Source of the DNA: Parafrankia irregularis
GTDB taxonomy: Bacteria; Actinomycetota; Actinomycetes; Frankiales; Frankiaceae
Reading direction: 5' to 3'
Assembly (NCBI RefSeq): GCF_001536285.1
Contig: NZ_FAOZ01000022.1
Span: 1 to 64,000, forward strand
DNA: 64,000 bases
Positions 17,191 through 59,460 of the stretch are shown here, piece by piece; the stretch's first letter is position 1; each line of letters starts with the position of its first letter. The notes under the pieces are model-generated. The model made no database searches and was not told the DNA's origin. It saw nothing but the letters and a program-made list of their open reading frames with translations. The position numbers and the translations under genes were made by a program.

Positions 17191-17227
17191 TTCTGGTTGC
17201 CTGGGTGCAACACCCAGGCAACCAGAA
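17191..17227 (-). terminator. 17-bp perfect hairpin, terminator-like
   Basis: Arms 17191-17207 and 17211-17227 are perfectly complementary (TTCTGGTTGCCTGGGTG and its complement) around a three-base CAA loop. It begins 20 bases after the stop of the minus-strand replication-relaxation gene (17247) and precedes the CBASS operon on the same strand. It would separate the two transcripts. There is no T-run, as is common for actinomycete terminators. Confidence 0.75.
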
Positions 17228-17246: not shown

Positions 17247-18281
17247 TCAGGCCGCGTGTTGCTGATGGTCGAGGCCTATGGGGGGCATTGGCTGCGGCGG
17301 GTGAAGGCGGTTGGGACGCCCGGGGAGATTGATCTTGTCTTCGTGGCCTGTGGCGGCGCGGTCCAGGGGCGACCAGACGAGGGACAACTGGCCCAGTCCG
17401 AGGCGACCGGCGCTAGCGCGGGTCAGGGGTAGCCAGCGGACCAGGGTGGCGTCCAGGTGTTGGTCGGGTTCGGCGAGGTCCGCGGCCGTGGTCGCGACGG
17501 GTACCCGTGCGGGCTGGTCGAGGTGGCGCAGCGCATCGACCAGCGCCTCGCGGATCCGGGCCTCCCGGCGGGTCGTGGTGGTCCAGATCAGGAGCGGTGT
17601 GGTGATCCGGGTCTCCTTGGCGAGCTGATGGTAGGTGTCGATCTTGAGGGCGAGGCGGCGTAGCGGTTCGGTGCCGAAGTCCAGCTCGACGAACCACTCG
17701 ATCTCGGCGCCGCCCTGCGCCCAACGGCCGTAGCCGTCCGGGCGGACGATGTCCCCGTACAGTCCCGCGCACCGTTCCTCTGACCACCAGGCCGTGAGTC
17801 GGCCGGTGGCGTCGGGCTGGCGGGCGTGGTGGATCAGCCGGGTGAACATCCCATTGACCGCGACCCGGTGGGCCAGATGCAGGGAGTGGGCGATGCCCAT
17901 GGCCCGGTCGTGCTGGTAACCGATCTTCCTCGGGTCCAGGCCGTCCTCGTGCGCGAGGACGGCGGCGCCAGCGACGTCGAGGACGTAGTGCATGGGCGAC
18001 AGGCCACTGATGGCCAGGGGCTGGAACCGGTCGAGGACCCGCCAGCGGTACAGCTCCAGCAGACGGATGTTCGCCGACCGGCGGGTGACCCAGCCGAGTT
18101 CGACGATCTGGTGGGTGGTCAACACCCGGTGCTCGTGGATCATGCGGGTGATCCACCGGTCCCGTGGGGTCAGGTGGCGGGCCAGCCACAGTTGGTGCTC
18201 ACCGCTGGACACGATGCGGGCGGTGGGTCGGGCGTAGGTGCGGCGGCCGAGGTAGGTCTGCTGCGGAGGGTTCGTGATCAT
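17247..18281 (-). CDS. Replication-relaxation family protein (plasmid/ICE)
   Basis: A 344-residue protein resembling the Replic_Relax family of actinomycete plasmids and integrative elements. It starts with a winged-helix-like region (TPRDRWITRMIHEHRVLTTH, IVELGWVTRRSANIRL) and continues with a nuclease-like core (EIEWFVELDFGTEPLRRLALKIDTY). The family takes part in plasmid replication or relaxation. ATG 18281 is chosen over longer starts because GGGAG stands about 11 bases upstream and homologues begin near the conserved helix-turn-helix. It lies 173 bases after the DUF2637 membrane gene on the same strand, and the pair marks a mobile-element remnant. Confidence 0.8.
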   Translation of the reverse strand: MITNPPQQTYLGRRTYARPTARIVSSGEHQLWLARHLTPRDRWITRMIHEHRVLTTHQIVELGWVTRRSANIRLLELYRWRVLDRFQPLAISGLSPMHYVLDVAGAAVLAHEDGLDPRKIGYQHDRAMGIAHSLHLAHRVAVNGMFTRLIHHARQPDATGRLTAWWSEERCAGLYGDIVRPDGYGRWAQGGAEIEWFVELDFGTEPLRRLALKIDTYHQLAKETRITTPLLIWTTTTRREARIREALVDALRHLDQPARVPVATTAADLAEPDQHLDATLVRWLPLTRASAGRLGLGQLSLVWSPLDRAATGHEDKINLPGRPNRLHPPQPMPPIGLDHQQHAA

Positions 18282-37953: not shown

Positions 37954-38001
37954 GCTGGCCGCGGCCGCCGGCCGCCGCCACCTCCGGCCTTGCTGTCAGA
38001 C

Positions 38002-38049
38002 AACAGTGGAGGATCGCGGTCGTCGGAACGACCGCGATCCTCCACTGTT
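38002..38049. terminator. 22-bp perfect hairpin, bidirectional terminator
   Basis: Arms 38002-38023 and 38028-38049 are perfectly complementary over 22 bases around a CGGA loop. It sits midway between the convergent substrate-binding gene (ends 37953) and the minus-strand methyltransferase (ends 38125), a classic place for a shared terminator. Confidence 0.85.
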
Positions 38050-38124
38050 CGGGCTCTTCGGACGGGCACTGCTTCCGGTCGACGGCGAGGGCCCTGCTGA
38101 GACGCTGCGCTGGACGACGCTGCG

Positions 38125-43523: not shown

Positions 43524-43875
43524 TGGCGCGCCGCCGCCAGCGCCCATGGCCGTTCAGATCCGTGAACGGACCGGTTCCTCGACCCTCGGCCCTCGGTCCT
43601 CATCAGGCAAAGTGACGGAGGCGCCAGAAACCCGAATCGCTCCAATCCGTTGGATGAATGACGGACACTCGACGATCGGGCCATCGCGGACAAATCGCCC
43701 CCACGGGCAGCCCGCACATCCGACATCGCCGGCCCGGCACCGCGTCATGGCATCCGGCGAGACCCGAAGAACCCCCGCGACCAGCGTCTTCAGGGGCCGC
43801 CGACGACGCCAACCACCCTCTGGACGGACGAAATCCCACCCCCGTAGCTCCCGACCAGGTGTGCGGGATCGGCAA

Positions 43876-43985
43876 CTAAAGGGCTCTTCGTCGCTCTTCC
43901 GATAAACACCCCTCGAAGACTTGCAAAACCGGCGAAGAAATGGATGTAAAGAGGCCCGAAGAAAGAGAAACGCGGAGCCCTTTAG
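43876..43985. repeat. 110-base inverted-repeat structure, lower GC
   Basis: The ends are perfect 11-base inverted repeats, CTAAAGGGCTC (43876-43886) and GAGCCCTTTAG (43975-43985), with further imperfect pairing inward (CTTCGTCGCTCTTCC against CCCGAAGAAAGAG). The interior is purine/A-rich. It could be a MITE-like insertion or the gene of a structured RNA; neither is proven. Confidence 0.6.
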
Positions 43986-44130
43986 GATCGCGAACAGAAC
44001 AGCCGTGCACCCGCCGAAAGCCGACCAGCACTGCCAGAAACCCGGAGGCTCCAATCAAGATCGCTAGCCCGCGGGTGACGGTGCGCTCCATCAACGTGTC
44101 CGGGCCTCCGAGGGTCCGGTAGCCCGGCTT

Positions 44131-44276
44131 GGCGAGTCGCAAGCGTGAAGGATTCCGGTTGTTCCGACGACCGAAATCCTTCACCTTTGCGGTTCGCCAG
44201 GCAATCTGGCGCCCCTTTTGCCCCTTTCGAGGACGAACTGCCGGTGCTGCGCGGGATCCTCGATGGGCAGCCGTGC
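44131..44276 (-). repeat. Dispersed 3' element, copy A, with 68-nt hairpin
   Basis: Read on the minus strand, this begins about 45 bases after the stop of the EndoQ-UvrD gene (44322). It shares CCCATCGAGGATCCCGCGC, then GCAGCACC/AGCACC, GGGGCAAAAG and GGCGC in the same order with copy B at 55273-55426. It ends in an imperfect 68-nt hairpin (44131-44198; 27 of about 32 stem positions pair, core GTGAAGGATT / AATCCTTCAC). Confidence 0.8.
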
Positions 44277-44321
44277 GGGTGCGGTTCGCCTTCCGTCAGC
44301 ACGCCTCAGCCTCGTTAGCCG

Positions 44322-48333: not shown

Positions 48334-51300
48334 ATGACGACGGACTCGGGTTCGGTGGACTCCGGAGTGGCTCACGCAGGGGCCACGGACACGGCGGACG
48401 TCGGCACAGACGGGGCGGAGCGCCGTCCGGCACGGGTGACCGCCCGGACCACGACCCGTGCCAGCTCCGACGCGCCACGGACGGGCATCGGCGCCGATCA
48501 CGCGGCAGGCCGCGGCGGAACCGAGAGCCGCGGTCGCACCGAGAGCCACACCGGCACCGGCACTGGCACCGGCCGCCCTGGCCCGGACGTCGGTGACGCC
48601 GGTGACGGTGGCAGCAACGACGCCACCGCGGCTGACGCCGCTGACGCCGGTTACGCCGCTGACGCCAGGGCGCTGGACCTCGCCCGCCGTGAGCGCTACG
48701 CCGCGCTGACCGACCGCTGCCACCGGCTCGTGCGCTTCCTGCACGAGGTGGCGGTCTCCCAGTCCGAGCAGATCGTCGACGTCGACGAGAACCCGTTGGT
48801 GATCTGGCTCGCCGGCCTGCCCTCCGGCCTGTCGCTGTTCGAGGCCGCCGGTGCCGGCGAGGTCCTGCTCGAGGCACCCGCCGCCGCGCTGCTTCCGCCC
48901 GCGCCACCGCTGCCCGAGATCCTCCGTGGCCGGGTCCGGCTGCCCGTCCGTGGCTCGGAGGCGTCCGCCGGCCGGTCGGAGCACGGGATCGTCCTGCACG
49001 GCCCCGTGCCCCCGGCCGACGTGGACCTGAGCGCGGCCCCGCTCCTCGTCTACGATCTGCCCGCCGTGAGCCAGGCGGAGCGGGCCGCGGGCCACCCCAC
49101 CGGCGATGCCGGCCACGGCGACGACCAGTCCGACAGGGATGACGCGGCGCGCCCGGGTGACGCGCCATCGGGTGCCCTGAACGGTTCCTCGCCGACGTCC
49201 AACGGCGCCGCGCCGTCATCCAACGGCAAGGGACCTTCGTCCAACGGCAGCGCGCCCTCCGCCAACGGCACCGCGCCCTCAACCAACGGCACTGCGCCCT
49301 CGGCAAATGGATCCGCGCCGACGTCGAACGGCTCGGGGCCGGCGTCCAAGGGTGGTTCGCCGACGTCCAACGGCCGTCGTTCCAACGGCACCCGGCCGCG
49401 CACCGGTGAGGTGACCGGCCCGCGGCAGCCGAGCACTGCCGGCGCCGCCGGCAACGGGCGCGCCGGCACCTCCGGCGAGCCGGCGACCACCTATCCGAGC
49501 GCCACGCCGGTTCCGGCGGACGTCGCGGCCGCGTTCGCGGAGTGGGCGCGGGCGTGGCAGGTGTGGAGCTCACGGGCGCGGGCCGACGCCGACCGACGCC
49601 ACCTGCACACGACGCTGTACGGGGTCGCGCAGCGTCTGGCCCAGGAAGGCGACACCCTGGAGCTGGTGCTCGCCACCGGCCTGCTGACCTGGAAGCTGCC
49701 CCGCCCGGTCCGGCGGCATCTGCTCGTCACCCGGCTCGTGGTCGAGACCGATCCGATGACGTCGGCCATCCGGCTGCGGGTGCCGGCGGGTACCTCCACC
49801 CGGCTGGAGGACAGCGCCTTCCTCGACCGGGTCCCGGCGTTCCGGCCGGAACGGACCAACGCGTTGCACGAGCGCCTCCGCTCACGTGACGCGGCGCCGC
49901 TGGGGGCCGACGACGAGCGACTCCTGCGGGACTGGCTAACGCTCGCCGTCGACGGCCCGACCGAGGGCTACCGCCCGAACTGGCCACCGCCCGGCCCGGC
50001 CGGCCCCAGCGCCTCGCTCACCCTCGCGCCGGCGCTCATCCTGCGCTCCCGCGGGCATGCCGCGCTGCTCAACTACTACGAGCAGATGCTGGACGCGCTG
50101 CGCGGCGACGGCCTGCCGCCGTTGGGGCTCGCCCAGCTGGTGGAAACCCTCGACACGTCCGAGCGCCTCGCCTGGCTCGCCACGGCGGAGGGCGCCGAAC
50201 CAGGCCGGCTGGCCCTCGCCCCCCGCTCCACAGGCACCCTCGCCGGCCCCACCGACTCCACCGGCTCCGGCTCATCCGGCTCCCCCGGCTCGCCGGATGC
50301 GGCCGATGCGGCCGATGCCGACGTGGCCGGGGACTGGCTCTCGCCGCTCCCGATCAGCCCGGAGCAGACCCGGGTGATGCGCAGGCTGCGCCTGGACAAC
50401 GGGGTCGTCGTCGAGGGCCCACCGGGCACCGGCAAGACCCACACCATCGCGAACCTGATCAGCGCGCTGCTCGCCGAAGGCCGCCGGGTCCTGGTGACCA
50501 GCCAGAAGGGCCAGGCCCTGCGGGTGCTGCAGGAGAAGCTCCCGCCCGAGCTTCGCCGGCTGTGCGTCTCGCTCACCGAGGACGCCGAGAGCGGTGCCGG
50601 CGAGCTCGCCACCAGCGTCAGCGCGCTGGCCGCCCAGAAGGCCGTCTACGACGCCGGATCCCAGGACGAGCGGATTCGGACGGCACGCCAGCGCCGGGAC
50701 TCGGCGGTCTCCGAGCGGGAACGGATCGCCACCGCGGTGGCGGCACGGCGGGCGGCCGAGTGGCGCCGGCACGGCACGTACGAGGTCGGCGCCGGCTGGT
50801 CGGGCACCCGCGCCGAGATCGCCGCGCGGCTGCGCGACGAGGCCTCCGAACACGGATGGATTCCCGTTCCCGTCCCCGGACCGGAGGGTGGCGGCTGGCC
50901 ACGCCCGCCGCTCAACGACTCCGAGGCCGCCGAACTGTGGCGCCTGCTGACGACACCCGACCCCGTCTCCTCGGCAATGCGCGGCTTCGGTGGCCCCGGA
51001 CAGCAGCACGGCGGGCCGGGCGACCCGTCCAGCGCGCCGACCACACCGTTGCGGATCACCATCGGGGGACGGCTGGTCCGGACAATTCCCGCCACCCTCC
51101 CAGCACCGCCCGCGCCACCCGTGTTGCCCGCCGCGCCCGTTCCGGCGGACGGCCAGGCGCCCCCCGCCCAGCCGGGACAGTCCGCGCGGCCAGGTCAACC
51201 CGCCCAACCGGGCCATGGTGGCGGTGGCGCCGGGCCGGAACGTGCCTCGGACGCGGCTGGAGCAGGACGCCAGGGTGGTCCGAGTGCTTCAGCCGGGACG

Positions 51301-54300
51301 GGGACACCGGCCGGTCAGGCTGGTCAGGCCGTCGGGGCGGAGTCCACGGGACCATCCGACCCGCCGACCGTCCCATCCCCGATCACCTCGGCGATCGCGC
51401 TGTCCGCACTGCGTGAGCAGCGGGCGTTCGGGCTGCCACCGGAGCTCGGCGAACTACCCACCCGCTCCGAGCTGACCGCGCTGGCCTACGCCGAGCAGGG
51501 AGCCCTGCACGCCGCCGAGACCGCCGAGCAGGCGCTGTCCCGCCAGGCGGCGGCCATGGTTCCCGTGCTGGCGCACGCCCTCGCCCTGGCCGGAGACGAG
51601 GCGGCCGACCGGCTGGCCGGAGCCGTCGACGGGGTGCTGCGCGCGGCGGAGATCATCGCCCGGCTCGCCGTCCGGCAGCCGTGGGCGGCGGACGCGCTCG
51701 CCGACGCCTTCGCCGGCCGGGCCGCGGTGCTGTGGACGAAGGTCGCCGCCGCCGCGCCCGCGATCGCCGAGGCGACGGCGGCGGTGGTCGAGCTCGGCCT
51801 GCACCAGGTGGAGCTCCCCCGCTACCCCGACGGCCGCGGGCCCGACGCGATCGCGCTGCTGTCCTCCGCCATCGCGCTGCGCGAGCACATGGACGCCGGC
51901 GGCACGCTGCGCAGGTTCTTCCGGTCGAAGGCGCAGAAGGACGCCCGGGTCCTGCTCGAGGAGACCAGCGTCGACGGGGTCCCGCCCCGCACCCCGGAGC
52001 TGCTCGACCTGGCACTGTTCCGGCTGCGCGCGGAGGTCGCGCTCGACGCGGCGACCCGCGCCTGGTCCCTGCTCAGCGTCGCCCCGGACCCGTCCGCGGA
52101 GCTGGAGGTCCGGCTGGCCCGTCTCACCGAGGCGCAGGATGTGGCGCGGGCCATCGACGTCGCCGTGGCGGCCCGCGGCCGGCTGGCGGCACTGCTCGAC
52201 GCGCTCGGCGCGCACGGCATCCCGCTGGACTCCCCGACGGCGTGCTTCGACGTGGGCGCGGCCGCGAACGCCTACCGGCTGCGGCAGGCCGCCACGGCCG
52301 CGGGCACCGGGCTGCGGGACCTCACCGCCGAGCTCGTCGCCGCCGCCGCCCAGCCGGATGCCGTCGACGAGCTGGCCCTGCTCGCCATGGCGGTCGAGGC
52401 CCGCGACCCGGCCGGGTATGTCGCGGCCCTGGAGGCCACGGCGGACGCGCTGAACGGCCGTGCCCGCGCCCGCCGCCGCGACGAGCTGCTCGGCCGGGTC
52501 CGGGAGGCCCACCCCGTCCTGGCCGACCTGCTGCAGGCGGGACGTCTGTTCGCCGGCCAGGGCGCGGCCAGCCACGGGACGCCCGGCCAGGCAGGTCACA
52601 CGGGTCAGGCAGGTCAGACCGGTCAGGGCGGCCAGGCCCCCACCGGCCCGGCGGCCCTCGGCGAGCTGTTCGAGTCCTTCGGCAAGGCGTGGTCGCACGC
52701 GGTCGCCGCGACCTGGCTCGCCCGCGTCCGCGCCACGGACCAGGCCGACCTGGACGCCGACCTCGACGCCGCCGACGAGCTGGTCGCCTCCGCGACGGCC
52801 GAACTGGCCGGATCGCTGGCCTGGAAGCACTGCCTGGAACGGATGGGCACCGAGCAGTCGGCGGCCCTGCGCGCCTACGCCGACGCGATGGCCGCCGGCG
52901 GCCGTTTCACCGGCCGGCACGCCGAGCGCTACCGGCAGGCCGCCCGGGAGGCGATGCGGATCGCGCAGACCGCCGTCCCGGCCTGGGTGATGCCGATCAG
53001 CGAGGTGCTGTCGACCATCCCGGCGGTACGGGACAGCTTCGACGTGGTGATCGTCGACGAGGGAAGCCAGGCCGGTCTCGAAAGCCTGTTCCTGCTCTGG
53101 CTCGCGCCGCGGGTGATCGTCGTCGGCGACGACCGCCAGTGCACGCCGCCGGACGCCTCCGCCGAGGAGCTCGAACCGGTCTTCAACCGGCTCGACACCC
53201 TGCTGCCGGACATCCCCAGCTGGCTGCGGGTCGGTTTCACCCCGCGGTCCAGCCTGTTCTCCCTGCTGCGGACCAGGTTCGGCGACGTCGTACGGCTGCG
53301 CGAGCACTTCCGCTGCATGCCGGAGATCATCGAGTGGTCGTCGGCGATGTTCTACCGTGACGCACCGCTGATCCCGCTGCGGCAGTTCGGCGTGGACCGG
53401 CTCACCCCGCTGCGGGCCCAGTACGTCCCGCACGCCTACACGACCCCGACGGCGGAGGGCCCGCGCAACCCCGTCGAGGCGGAGGCGCTGGTCACCCAGG
53501 TGCTGAAATGCGCCGAGGACCCGCGTTACCGGGGCCTGACCTTCGGCATCGTCGTGCTGCAGGGCAGCGCCCAGGCCGAGCTCATCCGCTCCGAGCTGGT
53601 CTCCCGGATGTCCGCCGCCGAGCAGCAGCGACGCCGGCTGCGGGTCGGTTCGCCGCCCGACTTCCAGGGCGACGAGCGGGACGTCATCTTCCTCTCCCTG
53701 GTCGTCGCACCCGGCACGTCGACCACCTCGCTGACCCGCCTGGAGTACCAGCGCAGGTTCAACGTGGCGGCGTCCCGGGCCCGTGACCAGGTCTGGCTGT
53801 TCCACTCGGTCTCGGCCTCCGACCTCGACCCCGTCGACCTGCGGCACAGTTACCTCAGCTACGTGCTGGCGCATTCGGGGTCGACGCCGACGGCCATCTC
53901 GGCGGCGCCGGTCGCCGCGTCCGAGGTCAGCCCGGTCCTGCCGCATCCGCGCTTCGACTCGCTGTTCGAGCAGCGGGTCTTCCTCGCCCTGGCCACGCGC
54001 GGCTACCACGTGACACCGCAGGTCGAGATCAACGGCCGCCGGTTCGACCTGGTCGTGTCCGGAGGGCGGGCCCGGCTCGCCGTCGAGTGCGACGGGGACA
54101 CCACCCGTTCCACCGACGACGTCGAGCGCGACCTGACCCGCGAGCGGGAGCTGCGCCGGGTCGGCTGGCGGATCTGGCGGATCCGCCGGTCCGAGTTCGA
54201 GATCGACCCGGAGGCGGCGCTCGCCCCGCTGTGGCCCCGGCTCGCCGCCGCGGGAATCCTGCCGATCGCCACCCCGGCGCACCTGCCGGTGACGCCGAAC

Positions 54301-55197
54301 CATCCCGACCCGGCGATGCACGTGACCCAGCTCCTGACCGCGCCCGAGTACGCGAGCCCGGTGCCCGCCGGCACCGCCCTGCCCTCGGCCCCGGCACCGA
54401 GAGCCCTCCCACCGGGGGCTTCGGCGACGTCCATCGCGGCGCCGTCCACTCCAGCGACGCCCGCTCCCGCGACGTTCACTCCGGCGGGGTCGACGGCCGC
54501 GGCGGCGGAGGCCCTGTCGGCGGCCGCGGCCGGCTCGGTGCGGCCGGAGAGCGAGTCGAGGCCGGCGCCACGGCCCGCCGGTGACACCACCGCACCCGGG
54601 CGGGATTCAGCTCCCGTGCGCCCCTCGGCCCTGCCGGTGCCGGAACCACGGGACGCGGGGAGGTCCACCGCGCGGGACCTGTTCCCGAGCACACCGGGCC
54701 TGCCGCTGCCGTCCGTGGGCGGCACGACCGGCTCCGGCACGACCGGCTCCGGCACGACCAGCTCGGGCGCTGCCGGCGCCTGGTCGACATCCGGCGGCTC
54801 GCCCACCGGCTGGGCGTCCGTGGGGACGTCACCCAGCGGCTTCCCCGCCATGCACGACCTCCCCTCCGGGCCGGATCAGTGGTCGGAGGACGCTGTCTCG
54901 CCCGGCGCACCGGTCGTCCCGGACGCGAGCATCGCGGCTGTGCCGACCGGCGGGCAGACCGACGCCGGACCGGCGGCCTCCGTCACTGCGGCCGGTGGGG
55001 CGACCGGTGGCACGGCTGACGCGGACGACCCTTCCTCCAGCCGTCCGTCGGCCGACCATGCTCCCGCCGCATCCGACACCGCTGGTCCCGGTGTGGCCTC
55101 GGTGCACGCGGACCCGGACGAACGCCGCCAGCGTTGGCGTCCCATCCAGCTTTCCGAGCTGGAGGGCCTCGACGACGTTCCTCCCACGGCGCTCTGA
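48334..55197 (+). CDS. Giant SF1 helicase with C-terminal Vsr-like nuclease domain
   Basis: A 2287-residue protein. The ATPase has Walker A GPPGTGKTHT at residue 695, VDEGSQAGLESLF near 1574, GDDRQCTPPD, DFQGDERDVIFLSLV and the SF1 end motif FNVAASRARDQVWLF (UPF1/COG1112-like). Walker A and B are about 880 residues apart because of large inserts. Residues about 1873-1980 form a DUF559/MTES_1575-type, Vsr-like nuclease: SLFEQRVFLAL, INGRRFDLVV and LAVECDGDTTRS. The N-terminus and the last 300 residues are disordered; residues about 283-350 are a Ser-Asn-Gly 8-residue repeat. Such helicase-nuclease fusions occur in defence and repair. GGGGAGAG precedes ATG 48334. Confidence 0.88.
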   Translation: MTTDSGSVDSGVAHAGATDTADVGTDGAERRPARVTARTTTRASSDAPRTGIGADHAAGRGGTESRGRTESHTGTGTGTGRPGPDVGDAGDGGSNDATAADAADAGYAADARALDLARRERYAALTDRCHRLVRFLHEVAVSQSEQIVDVDENPLVIWLAGLPSGLSLFEAAGAGEVLLEAPAAALLPPAPPLPEILRGRVRLPVRGSEASAGRSEHGIVLHGPVPPADVDLSAAPLLVYDLPAVSQAERAAGHPTGDAGHGDDQSDRDDAARPGDAPSGALNGSSPTSNGAAPSSNGKGPSSNGSAPSANGTAPSTNGTAPSANGSAPTSNGSGPASKGGSPTSNGRRSNGTRPRTGEVTGPRQPSTAGAAGNGRAGTSGEPATTYPSATPVPADVAAAFAEWARAWQVWSSRARADADRRHLHTTLYGVAQRLAQEGDTLELVLATGLLTWKLPRPVRRHLLVTRLVVETDPMTSAIRLRVPAGTSTRLEDSAFLDRVPAFRPERTNALHERLRSRDAAPLGADDERLLRDWLTLAVDGPTEGYRPNWPPPGPAGPSASLTLAPALILRSRGHAALLNYYEQMLDALRGDGLPPLGLAQLVETLDTSERLAWLATAEGAEPGRLALAPRSTGTLAGPTDSTGSGSSGSPGSPDAADAADADVAGDWLSPLPISPEQTRVMRRLRLDNGVVVEGPPGTGKTHTIANLISALLAEGRRVLVTSQKGQALRVLQEKLPPELRRLCVSLTEDAESGAGELATSVSALAAQKAVYDAGSQDERIRTARQRRDSAVSERERIATAVAARRAAEWRRHGTYEVGAGWSGTRAEIAARLRDEASEHGWIPVPVPGPEGGGWPRPPLNDSEAAELWRLLTTPDPVSSAMRGFGGPGQQHGGPGDPSSAPTTPLRITIGGRLVRTIPATLPAPPAPPVLPAAPVPADGQAPPAQPGQSARPGQPAQPGHGGGGAGPERASDAAGAGRQGGPSASAGTGTPAGQAGQAVGAESTGPSDPPTVPSPITSAIALSALREQRAFGLPPELGELPTRSELTALAYAEQGALHAAETAEQALSRQAAAMVPVLAHALALAGDEAADRLAGAVDGVLRAAEIIARLAVRQPWAADALADAFAGRAAVLWTKVAAAAPAIAEATAAVVELGLHQVELPRYPDGRGPDAIALLSSAIALREHMDAGGTLRRFFRSKAQKDARVLLEETSVDGVPPRTPELLDLALFRLRAEVALDAATRAWSLLSVAPDPSAELEVRLARLTEAQDVARAIDVAVAARGRLAALLDALGAHGIPLDSPTACFDVGAAANAYRLRQAATAAGTGLRDLTAELVAAAAQPDAVDELALLAMAVEARDPAGYVAALEATADALNGRARARRRDELLGRVREAHPVLADLLQAGRLFAGQGAASHGTPGQAGHTGQAGQTGQGGQAPTGPAALGELFESFGKAWSHAVAATWLARVRATDQADLDADLDAADELVASATAELAGSLAWKHCLERMGTEQSAALRAYADAMAAGGRFTGRHAERYRQAAREAMRIAQTAVPAWVMPISEVLSTIPAVRDSFDVVIVDEGSQAGLESLFLLWLAPRVIVVGDDRQCTPPDASAEELEPVFNRLDTLLPDIPSWLRVGFTPRSSLFSLLRTRFGDVVRLREHFRCMPEIIEWSSAMFYRDAPLIPLRQFGVDRLTPLRAQYVPHAYTTPTAEGPRNPVEAEALVTQVLKCAEDPRYRGLTFGIVVLQGSAQAELIRSELVSRMSAAEQQRRRLRVGSPPDFQGDERDVIFLSLVVAPGTSTTSLTRLEYQRRFNVAASRARDQVWLFHSVSASDLDPVDLRHSYLSYVLAHSGSTPTAISAAPVAASEVSPVLPHPRFDSLFEQRVFLALATRGYHVTPQVEINGRRFDLVVSGGRARLAVECDGDTTRSTDDVERDLTRERELRRVGWRIWRIRRSEFEIDPEAALAPLWPRLAAAGILPIATPAHLPVTPNHPDPAMHVTQLLTAPEYASPVPAGTALPSAPAPRALPPGASATSIAAPSTPATPAPATFTPAGSTAAAAEALSAAAAGSVRPESESRPAPRPAGDTTAPGRDSAPVRPSALPVPEPRDAGRSTARDLFPSTPGLPLPSVGGTTGSGTTGSGTTSSGAAGAWSTSGGSPTGWASVGTSPSGFPAMHDLPSGPDQWSEDAVSPGAPVVPDASIAAVPTGGQTDAGPAASVTAAGGATGGTADADDPSSSRPSADHAPAASDTAGPGVASVHADPDERRQRWRPIQLSELEGLDDVPPTAL

Positions 55198-55515
55198 CCC
55201 CGGCCGTCCGGCAGTCCGGCAGGCCCGGTGGTCCGGCAGGCCCCCGACCGGGTGGTCTGCCGGACTTCCGGGCGCACGGCCACCCATCGAGGATCCCGCG
55301 CCGCCGGGCAGCACCAGCAATTCGCCTCAAGAGGGGCAAAAGAGGCGCAGAGCCACCTGGCGACCCGCAAGAAGTGAGGATTTTGGTCGTTGGCCCGACC
55401 AAAATCGTTCACTCTTGCGACGCGCCAAACCGGGCCACCGGCTTCTCGGACCAGTGGCGGCCCTCAGCCGCGTAGCCGCGTAGCCGCGTCCGTCCGATTG
55501 CCGTCCTACGCCGAG
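55198..55515. other. Convergent intergenic region holding element B
   Basis: The gap between the SF1 helicase-nuclease and the convergent acetamidase. It begins with a GTCCGGCAGGCC-type short repeat (about 55206-55245) and is otherwise filled by copy B of the dispersed 3' element. Confidence 0.6.
55273..55426 (+). repeat. Dispersed 3' element, copy B, with 68-nt hairpin
   Basis: It starts about 75 bases after the helicase-nuclease stop and has the same orientation to that gene as copy A has to EndoQ-UvrD. The shared blocks are GCACGGC, CCCATCGAGGATCCCGCGC, GCAGCACC, GGGGCAAAAG, GGCGC and CGCAA. The terminal hairpin (55359-55426) is also 68 nt, with stem core GATTTTGGTCG / CGACCAAAATC and outer stem GGCGACCCGCAAGA. 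Confidence 0.82.
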
Positions 55516-59254: not shown

Positions 59255-59306
59255 GCAAGAACTGAGAATCCTGGCCGCCACAGCAACCGAAACCCTCACT
59301 TCTTGC
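59255..59306. repeat. Third, shorter relative of the dispersed hairpin
   Basis: GCAAGAACTGAGAATCCTGG pairs imperfectly with the arm ending CACTTCTTGC. On the minus strand it begins GCAAGAAGTGAGG, identical to 13 bases of copy B. The upstream conserved blocks of copies A and B are only faintly present. It lies between hydA-like and kinase genes. Confidence 0.6.
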
Positions 59307-59460
59307 TGATCACCGAGCGACCCTGTGCCACATTTGCGCCGATTGACGGAATGACACTGACGCTGTGTGGCGACACCGGATCCCTGGTGGGTCACCAAAC
59401 AGCGGGTAGGCGCAGACCGCCAGATCAATATCGGCGCCCCAGAGAACCCCGTGAACGCAG

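Follow-up and report, generated by a model that had tools for sequence, protein, structure and literature searches.

A hairpin-bearing intergenic repeat amplified in two Parafrankia genomes, probably a non-autonomous MITE/REP-like family

The REP, BIME and REPIN elements are defined as palindromes of 20–40 bp with a GTAG or CGTC motif at the foot and stems of 5–13 bp (PMC3733652), and REP families of the CGTC type have no dedicated transposase (PMC3733652). No description of a Frankia repeat such as the one reported here was found in the literature searched, where the subject of Bickhart et al. 2009 (PMC2770080) is insertion sequences and the terms "MITE" and "palindrom" are absent from the text. 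We regard the repeat as a new MITE/REP-like family, non-coding and otherwise of a well-known type.

Parafrankia are nitrogen-fixing soil actinobacteria, and the window analysed here is a stretch of 64,000 nucleotides of Parafrankia irregularis, in which two copies of the repeat, A and B, each occupy a gap between convergent genes. Copy A spans 44046–44310 on the minus strand, as delimited by a profile of all-against-all homology centred on the hairpin, and adjoins the 3' end of a UvrD-type helicase gene. Copy B spans 55274–55451 on the plus strand (BLAST and homology profile) and begins 76 bases 3' of a helicase gene whose product has a REase_MTES_1575 domain. The original prediction that the two share long blocks and end in hairpins of exactly 68 nt was borne out: a BLAST query with 44100–44300 (minus strand) retrieved copy B at 55273–55450 with 78% identity over about 170 bases (E 3.5e-31), the 19-base segment CCCATCGAGGATCCCGCGC is common to both copies, and GGGGCAAAAG is likewise present in each. 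The hairpins lie at 44131–44198 (minus strand, -42.0 kcal/mol, z -7.3 on the element strand) and 55359–55426 (plus strand, -39.3 kcal/mol, z -6.8 on the element strand), far more stable than shuffled sequence. The two stems had also been expected to differ while compensating their differences. They do differ, at 12 of 31 pairs in the symmetric register, but the compensation is weak, with a single true double change (C-G to T-A) among the 12, two pairs kept via wobble and nine altered in pairing status or unpaired in both; the stem of copy B is retained chiefly through a bulged re-register.

Two weaker relatives were located in the same window. The first, at 59255–59348 on the minus strand, is a subfamily-2 copy (stem of the AGTGAGG..GGTTGC type) that scores 80 bits against a subfamily-2 profile whose training set includes it. 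The second is a short palindrome of a type that we call s3, at 38001–38058, with a 48-nt hairpin (38002–38049) paired at every stem position and convergent genes on either side. Separately, a GC-rich hairpin at 55223–55273 abuts copy B and has a counterpart at the same place in Parafrankia sp. EUN1f, and a perfect 37-nt hairpin at 17191–17227, about 20 nt behind a minus-strand gene ending at 17247, resembles an ordinary 3' hairpin. Positions 48334–55197 encode a possibly defence-related protein of 2287 aa that combines helicase-type (AAA_11/AAA_12) and REase_MTES_1575 domains.

To place the copies in a wider context, this genome (G000) was compared with EUN1f (G001) and four other congeners (G002–G005). 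BLAST alone scored at least 40 places in this genome, with many further candidates. A covariance model trained on 40 copies of the family then returned at least 150 copies here and 149 in EUN1f, so that A and B are by no means an isolated pair, and it gave no match in the four congeners. A BLAST survey over 40 relatives agrees with this clade restriction, finding elsewhere short weak matches only, and plasmid and phage collections gave no match. With a size of about 120–430 bp, the element is short, dispersed and high-copy, as MITEs are.

Comparison of orthologous sites revealed insertion polymorphism of the kind expected of such elements. At site A, the gap between a MerR-type gene and the UvrD-type helicase gene measures 798 bp here (43524–44321), while the same two genes lie about 35 bp apart in EUN1f, which is missing an insertion of about 770 bp containing copy A. 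The insertion also carries a second repeat module (43610–44043) with three EUN1f relatives at 73–76%, one of which sits beside another copy of the A/B element. At site B, EUN1f has a subfamily-2 hairpin in place of copy B. The intergenic DNA of the other congeners was compared by gap size and hairpins: from where the protein alignments stop, their site-B gaps are estimated at roughly 6–70 bp, and G002, G003 and G005 show no comparable hairpin. The G004 ortholog has a strong unrelated hairpin (L122 924–989). Elsewhere in the genome, site C2 ~271.8 kb has a copy that EUN1f lacks, on an insertion of about 428 bp relative to EUN1f with TGACG on either side, a 5-bp repeat at one clean empty site that could be due to chance. 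At each of four further sites (C36 ~68.3 kb, C21 ~27.4 kb, C36 ~52.8 kb and C21 ~45.1 kb), EUN1f has at least one s3-type hairpin instead of the long element. Site C23 ~5 kb has an intact s3 palindrome in EUN1f; in this genome, s3 arms flank the long element there, and the right arm is truncated. Since about 15 of 20 sampled EUN1f copies have a counterpart at the orthologous site here, most insertions are old and give no sign of current activity.

The longer copies, of about 430 bp, have GAGCCTGTAGCAGAATCCTGAG as their left ends and CGACAGGCTC as their right ends, and an s3 arm directly adjoins about two thirds of the ends that can be recognised (23 of 35 left, 26 of 40 right), compared with 0.3% and 2.3% of random windows for left and right, respectively. 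This second, shorter, REP-like palindrome is abundant in both this genome and EUN1f and was not found in G002–G005, the same restriction as that of the long element. It occurs in intergenic DNA, singly, paired 20–41 bp apart or clustered, and several orthologous sites in EUN1f have it without the long element. Its arms are inverse complements at the opposite ends of the long copies, and they may belong to the target.

Taken together, these observations lead us to propose, with a probability of roughly three in four, that A and B are degraded members of a non-autonomous, MITE- or REP-like family of interspersed palindromic repeats that multiplied in the ancestor shared by this genome and EUN1f. 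The original prediction had named a terminator, an RNA element or a MITE as possible identities, and it is the last that copy number, clade restriction, intergenic position, empty sites and palindrome arms favour. Mechanistically, a transposase supplied in trans would have driven a burst of amplification in that ancestor; s3 palindromes would have been the insertion sites or, alternatively, the s3 arms would have formed the terminal inverted repeats. Copies would then survive chiefly at places where they interrupt neither a promoter nor an operon, which would account for their location in convergent gaps, and the hairpin may subsequently serve passively as a 3'-end structure. A search of the Y1 transposases found none with the same ends as the element; GGAGCCTGTMGC and the s3 arms are candidate border sequences for a mobilising transposase gene.

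A variant of this proposal, in which s3 is not the target but an interior-deleted form of the long element made of its fused terminal repeats, is possible, though we hold it with less than even confidence. It would fit the inverse-complementary s3 arms at both ends of the long copies, as well as site C2, where the degenerate 5' arm came with the interior relative to EUN1f. On the other hand, EUN1f has intact s3 at several sites where this genome has the long form, which insertion into s3 explains as well or better.

The gene context of the repeat bears on both the mobile-element proposal and its main rival. With genes called by a codon-usage gene finder, 81 copies could be placed in context, and all 81 are intergenic. 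Among the 78 with both neighbours called, the flanking genes are convergent in 39 cases, co-directional in 31 and divergent in 8. The anticipated bias to gene 3' ends is thus real: convergent gaps hold half of these copies (39/78) and make up 19% of ordinary gaps (25/133), the latter taken from the window and from eight regions picked irrespective of copies (odds ratio 4.3, Fisher p 5e-6). Extragenic position and 3'-end bias, here counted for the long element and not for s3 alone, are features shared with REPs and REPINs. The eight blindly picked regions, 160 kb in total, contain one copy, so most convergent gene pairs are without the element. A universal terminator of convergent genes is ruled out, with the element present in none of the 17 convergent gaps of those regions.

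The main rival would have a dispersed RNA element, or a bidirectional terminator or roadblock, at gene 3' ends with its hairpin under selection. The convergent-gap bias and the highly stable folds speak for it, and so does a comparison of 16 orthologous pairs between the two genomes, where identity is 88.6% over the hairpin, with 13 gap columns, and 77.7% over the adjoining 5' core, with 163. This comparison is suggestive only, because one of the pairs (L137/L079) fails to align on its left side and because the copies were selected for an intact hairpin in both genomes, an ascertainment that may raise the apparent conservation. With that proviso, a hairpin better conserved than the element around it is not predicted by pure decay and counts against the mobile-element proposal in its simplest form; it suggests that the hairpin may have acquired a secondary use as a 3'-end structure. 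However, the key features expected of an RNA element or terminator are absent or nearly so. None of 107 hairpins is followed within 12 nt by a T-run of three or more (T fraction 0.076), the convergent gaps of the unbiased regions are free of the element, and the family was not found in the four congeners. Covariation, which the original prediction took as support for an RNA element, is close to nil within the family: over 105 copies, 79.2% of stem cells are paired against 78.0% expected for independent columns, an excess above all shuffles, although the shuffles ignore the relatedness of the copies. The hairpin is kept by sequence instead. The RNAalifold consensus of 40 copies has only 11 pairs, one of them with double changes. 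Matched stem changes do appear in the deeper comparison of the family with subfamily 2 and the s3 hairpins, their number being uncertain because some s3 hairpins are centred 1–2 bases off. Rfam gave no family at the gathering score, only weak microRNA matches far below the cut-off. On this balance, drawn from sequence comparison, we consider a selected RNA element or terminator unlikely.

Somewhat less probable still is a two-layer mobile system that would involve no RAYT (REP-associated tyrosine transposase): a non-autonomous element would take as its targets REP-like palindromes located 3' of genes, and its hairpin would since have acquired the role of a barrier, lacking a T-tract, between convergent transcription units. 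Improbable above all is a classical REP/REPIN family mobilised by a RAYT: the intergenic s3 palindromes, single, doubled or clustered, would suit it, but the Y1 transposase (PF01797) search found no match in EUN1f and, in this genome, two genes that resemble ordinary IS200/IS605-type ones and have no palindromes bracketing them, no GTAG or CGTC foot tag was seen on the inspected s3 hairpins and their flanks, and the stems exceed those of described REPs.

The family explains a kind of sequence that recurs between genes in two Parafrankia genomes, its copies supply markers for strain typing, and the palindrome burst becomes assignable to one branch. In addition, a hairpin apparently conserved above the rest of the element makes it possible to test whether mobile hairpins are recruited as 3'-end structures.

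How, then, does the repeat compare with known systems? Like intrinsic terminators, it places a stable hairpin behind genes; unlike them, it has no T-tract, a 68-nt stem-loop and conserved upstream sequence, and it is missing behind most genes. As with insertion sequences nested in REPs (ISPpu9, PMC8450116), a longer element lies inside a repeated extragenic palindrome, but at about 430 bp the Parafrankia element is too short for a transposase gene. With REP, BIME and REPIN elements (PMC3733652) it shares high-copy extragenic palindromes, found downstream of genes, between convergent genes and in doublets, whereas its stems have about 16–31 pairs rather than 5–13 bp, a longer composite form exists, and it comes without a RAYT or a visible GTAG/CGTC foot tag; its size and the absence of foot tags place it formally outside the REPs. 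Bacterial MITEs differ in that no parental insertion sequence was identified for the Parafrankia repeat, a possible target duplication was seen at a single site and its copies are ragged and truncated. Nevertheless, like them, it is short and high-copy and varies in presence between relatives, and many of its ends have inverted repeats, which may belong to the target.
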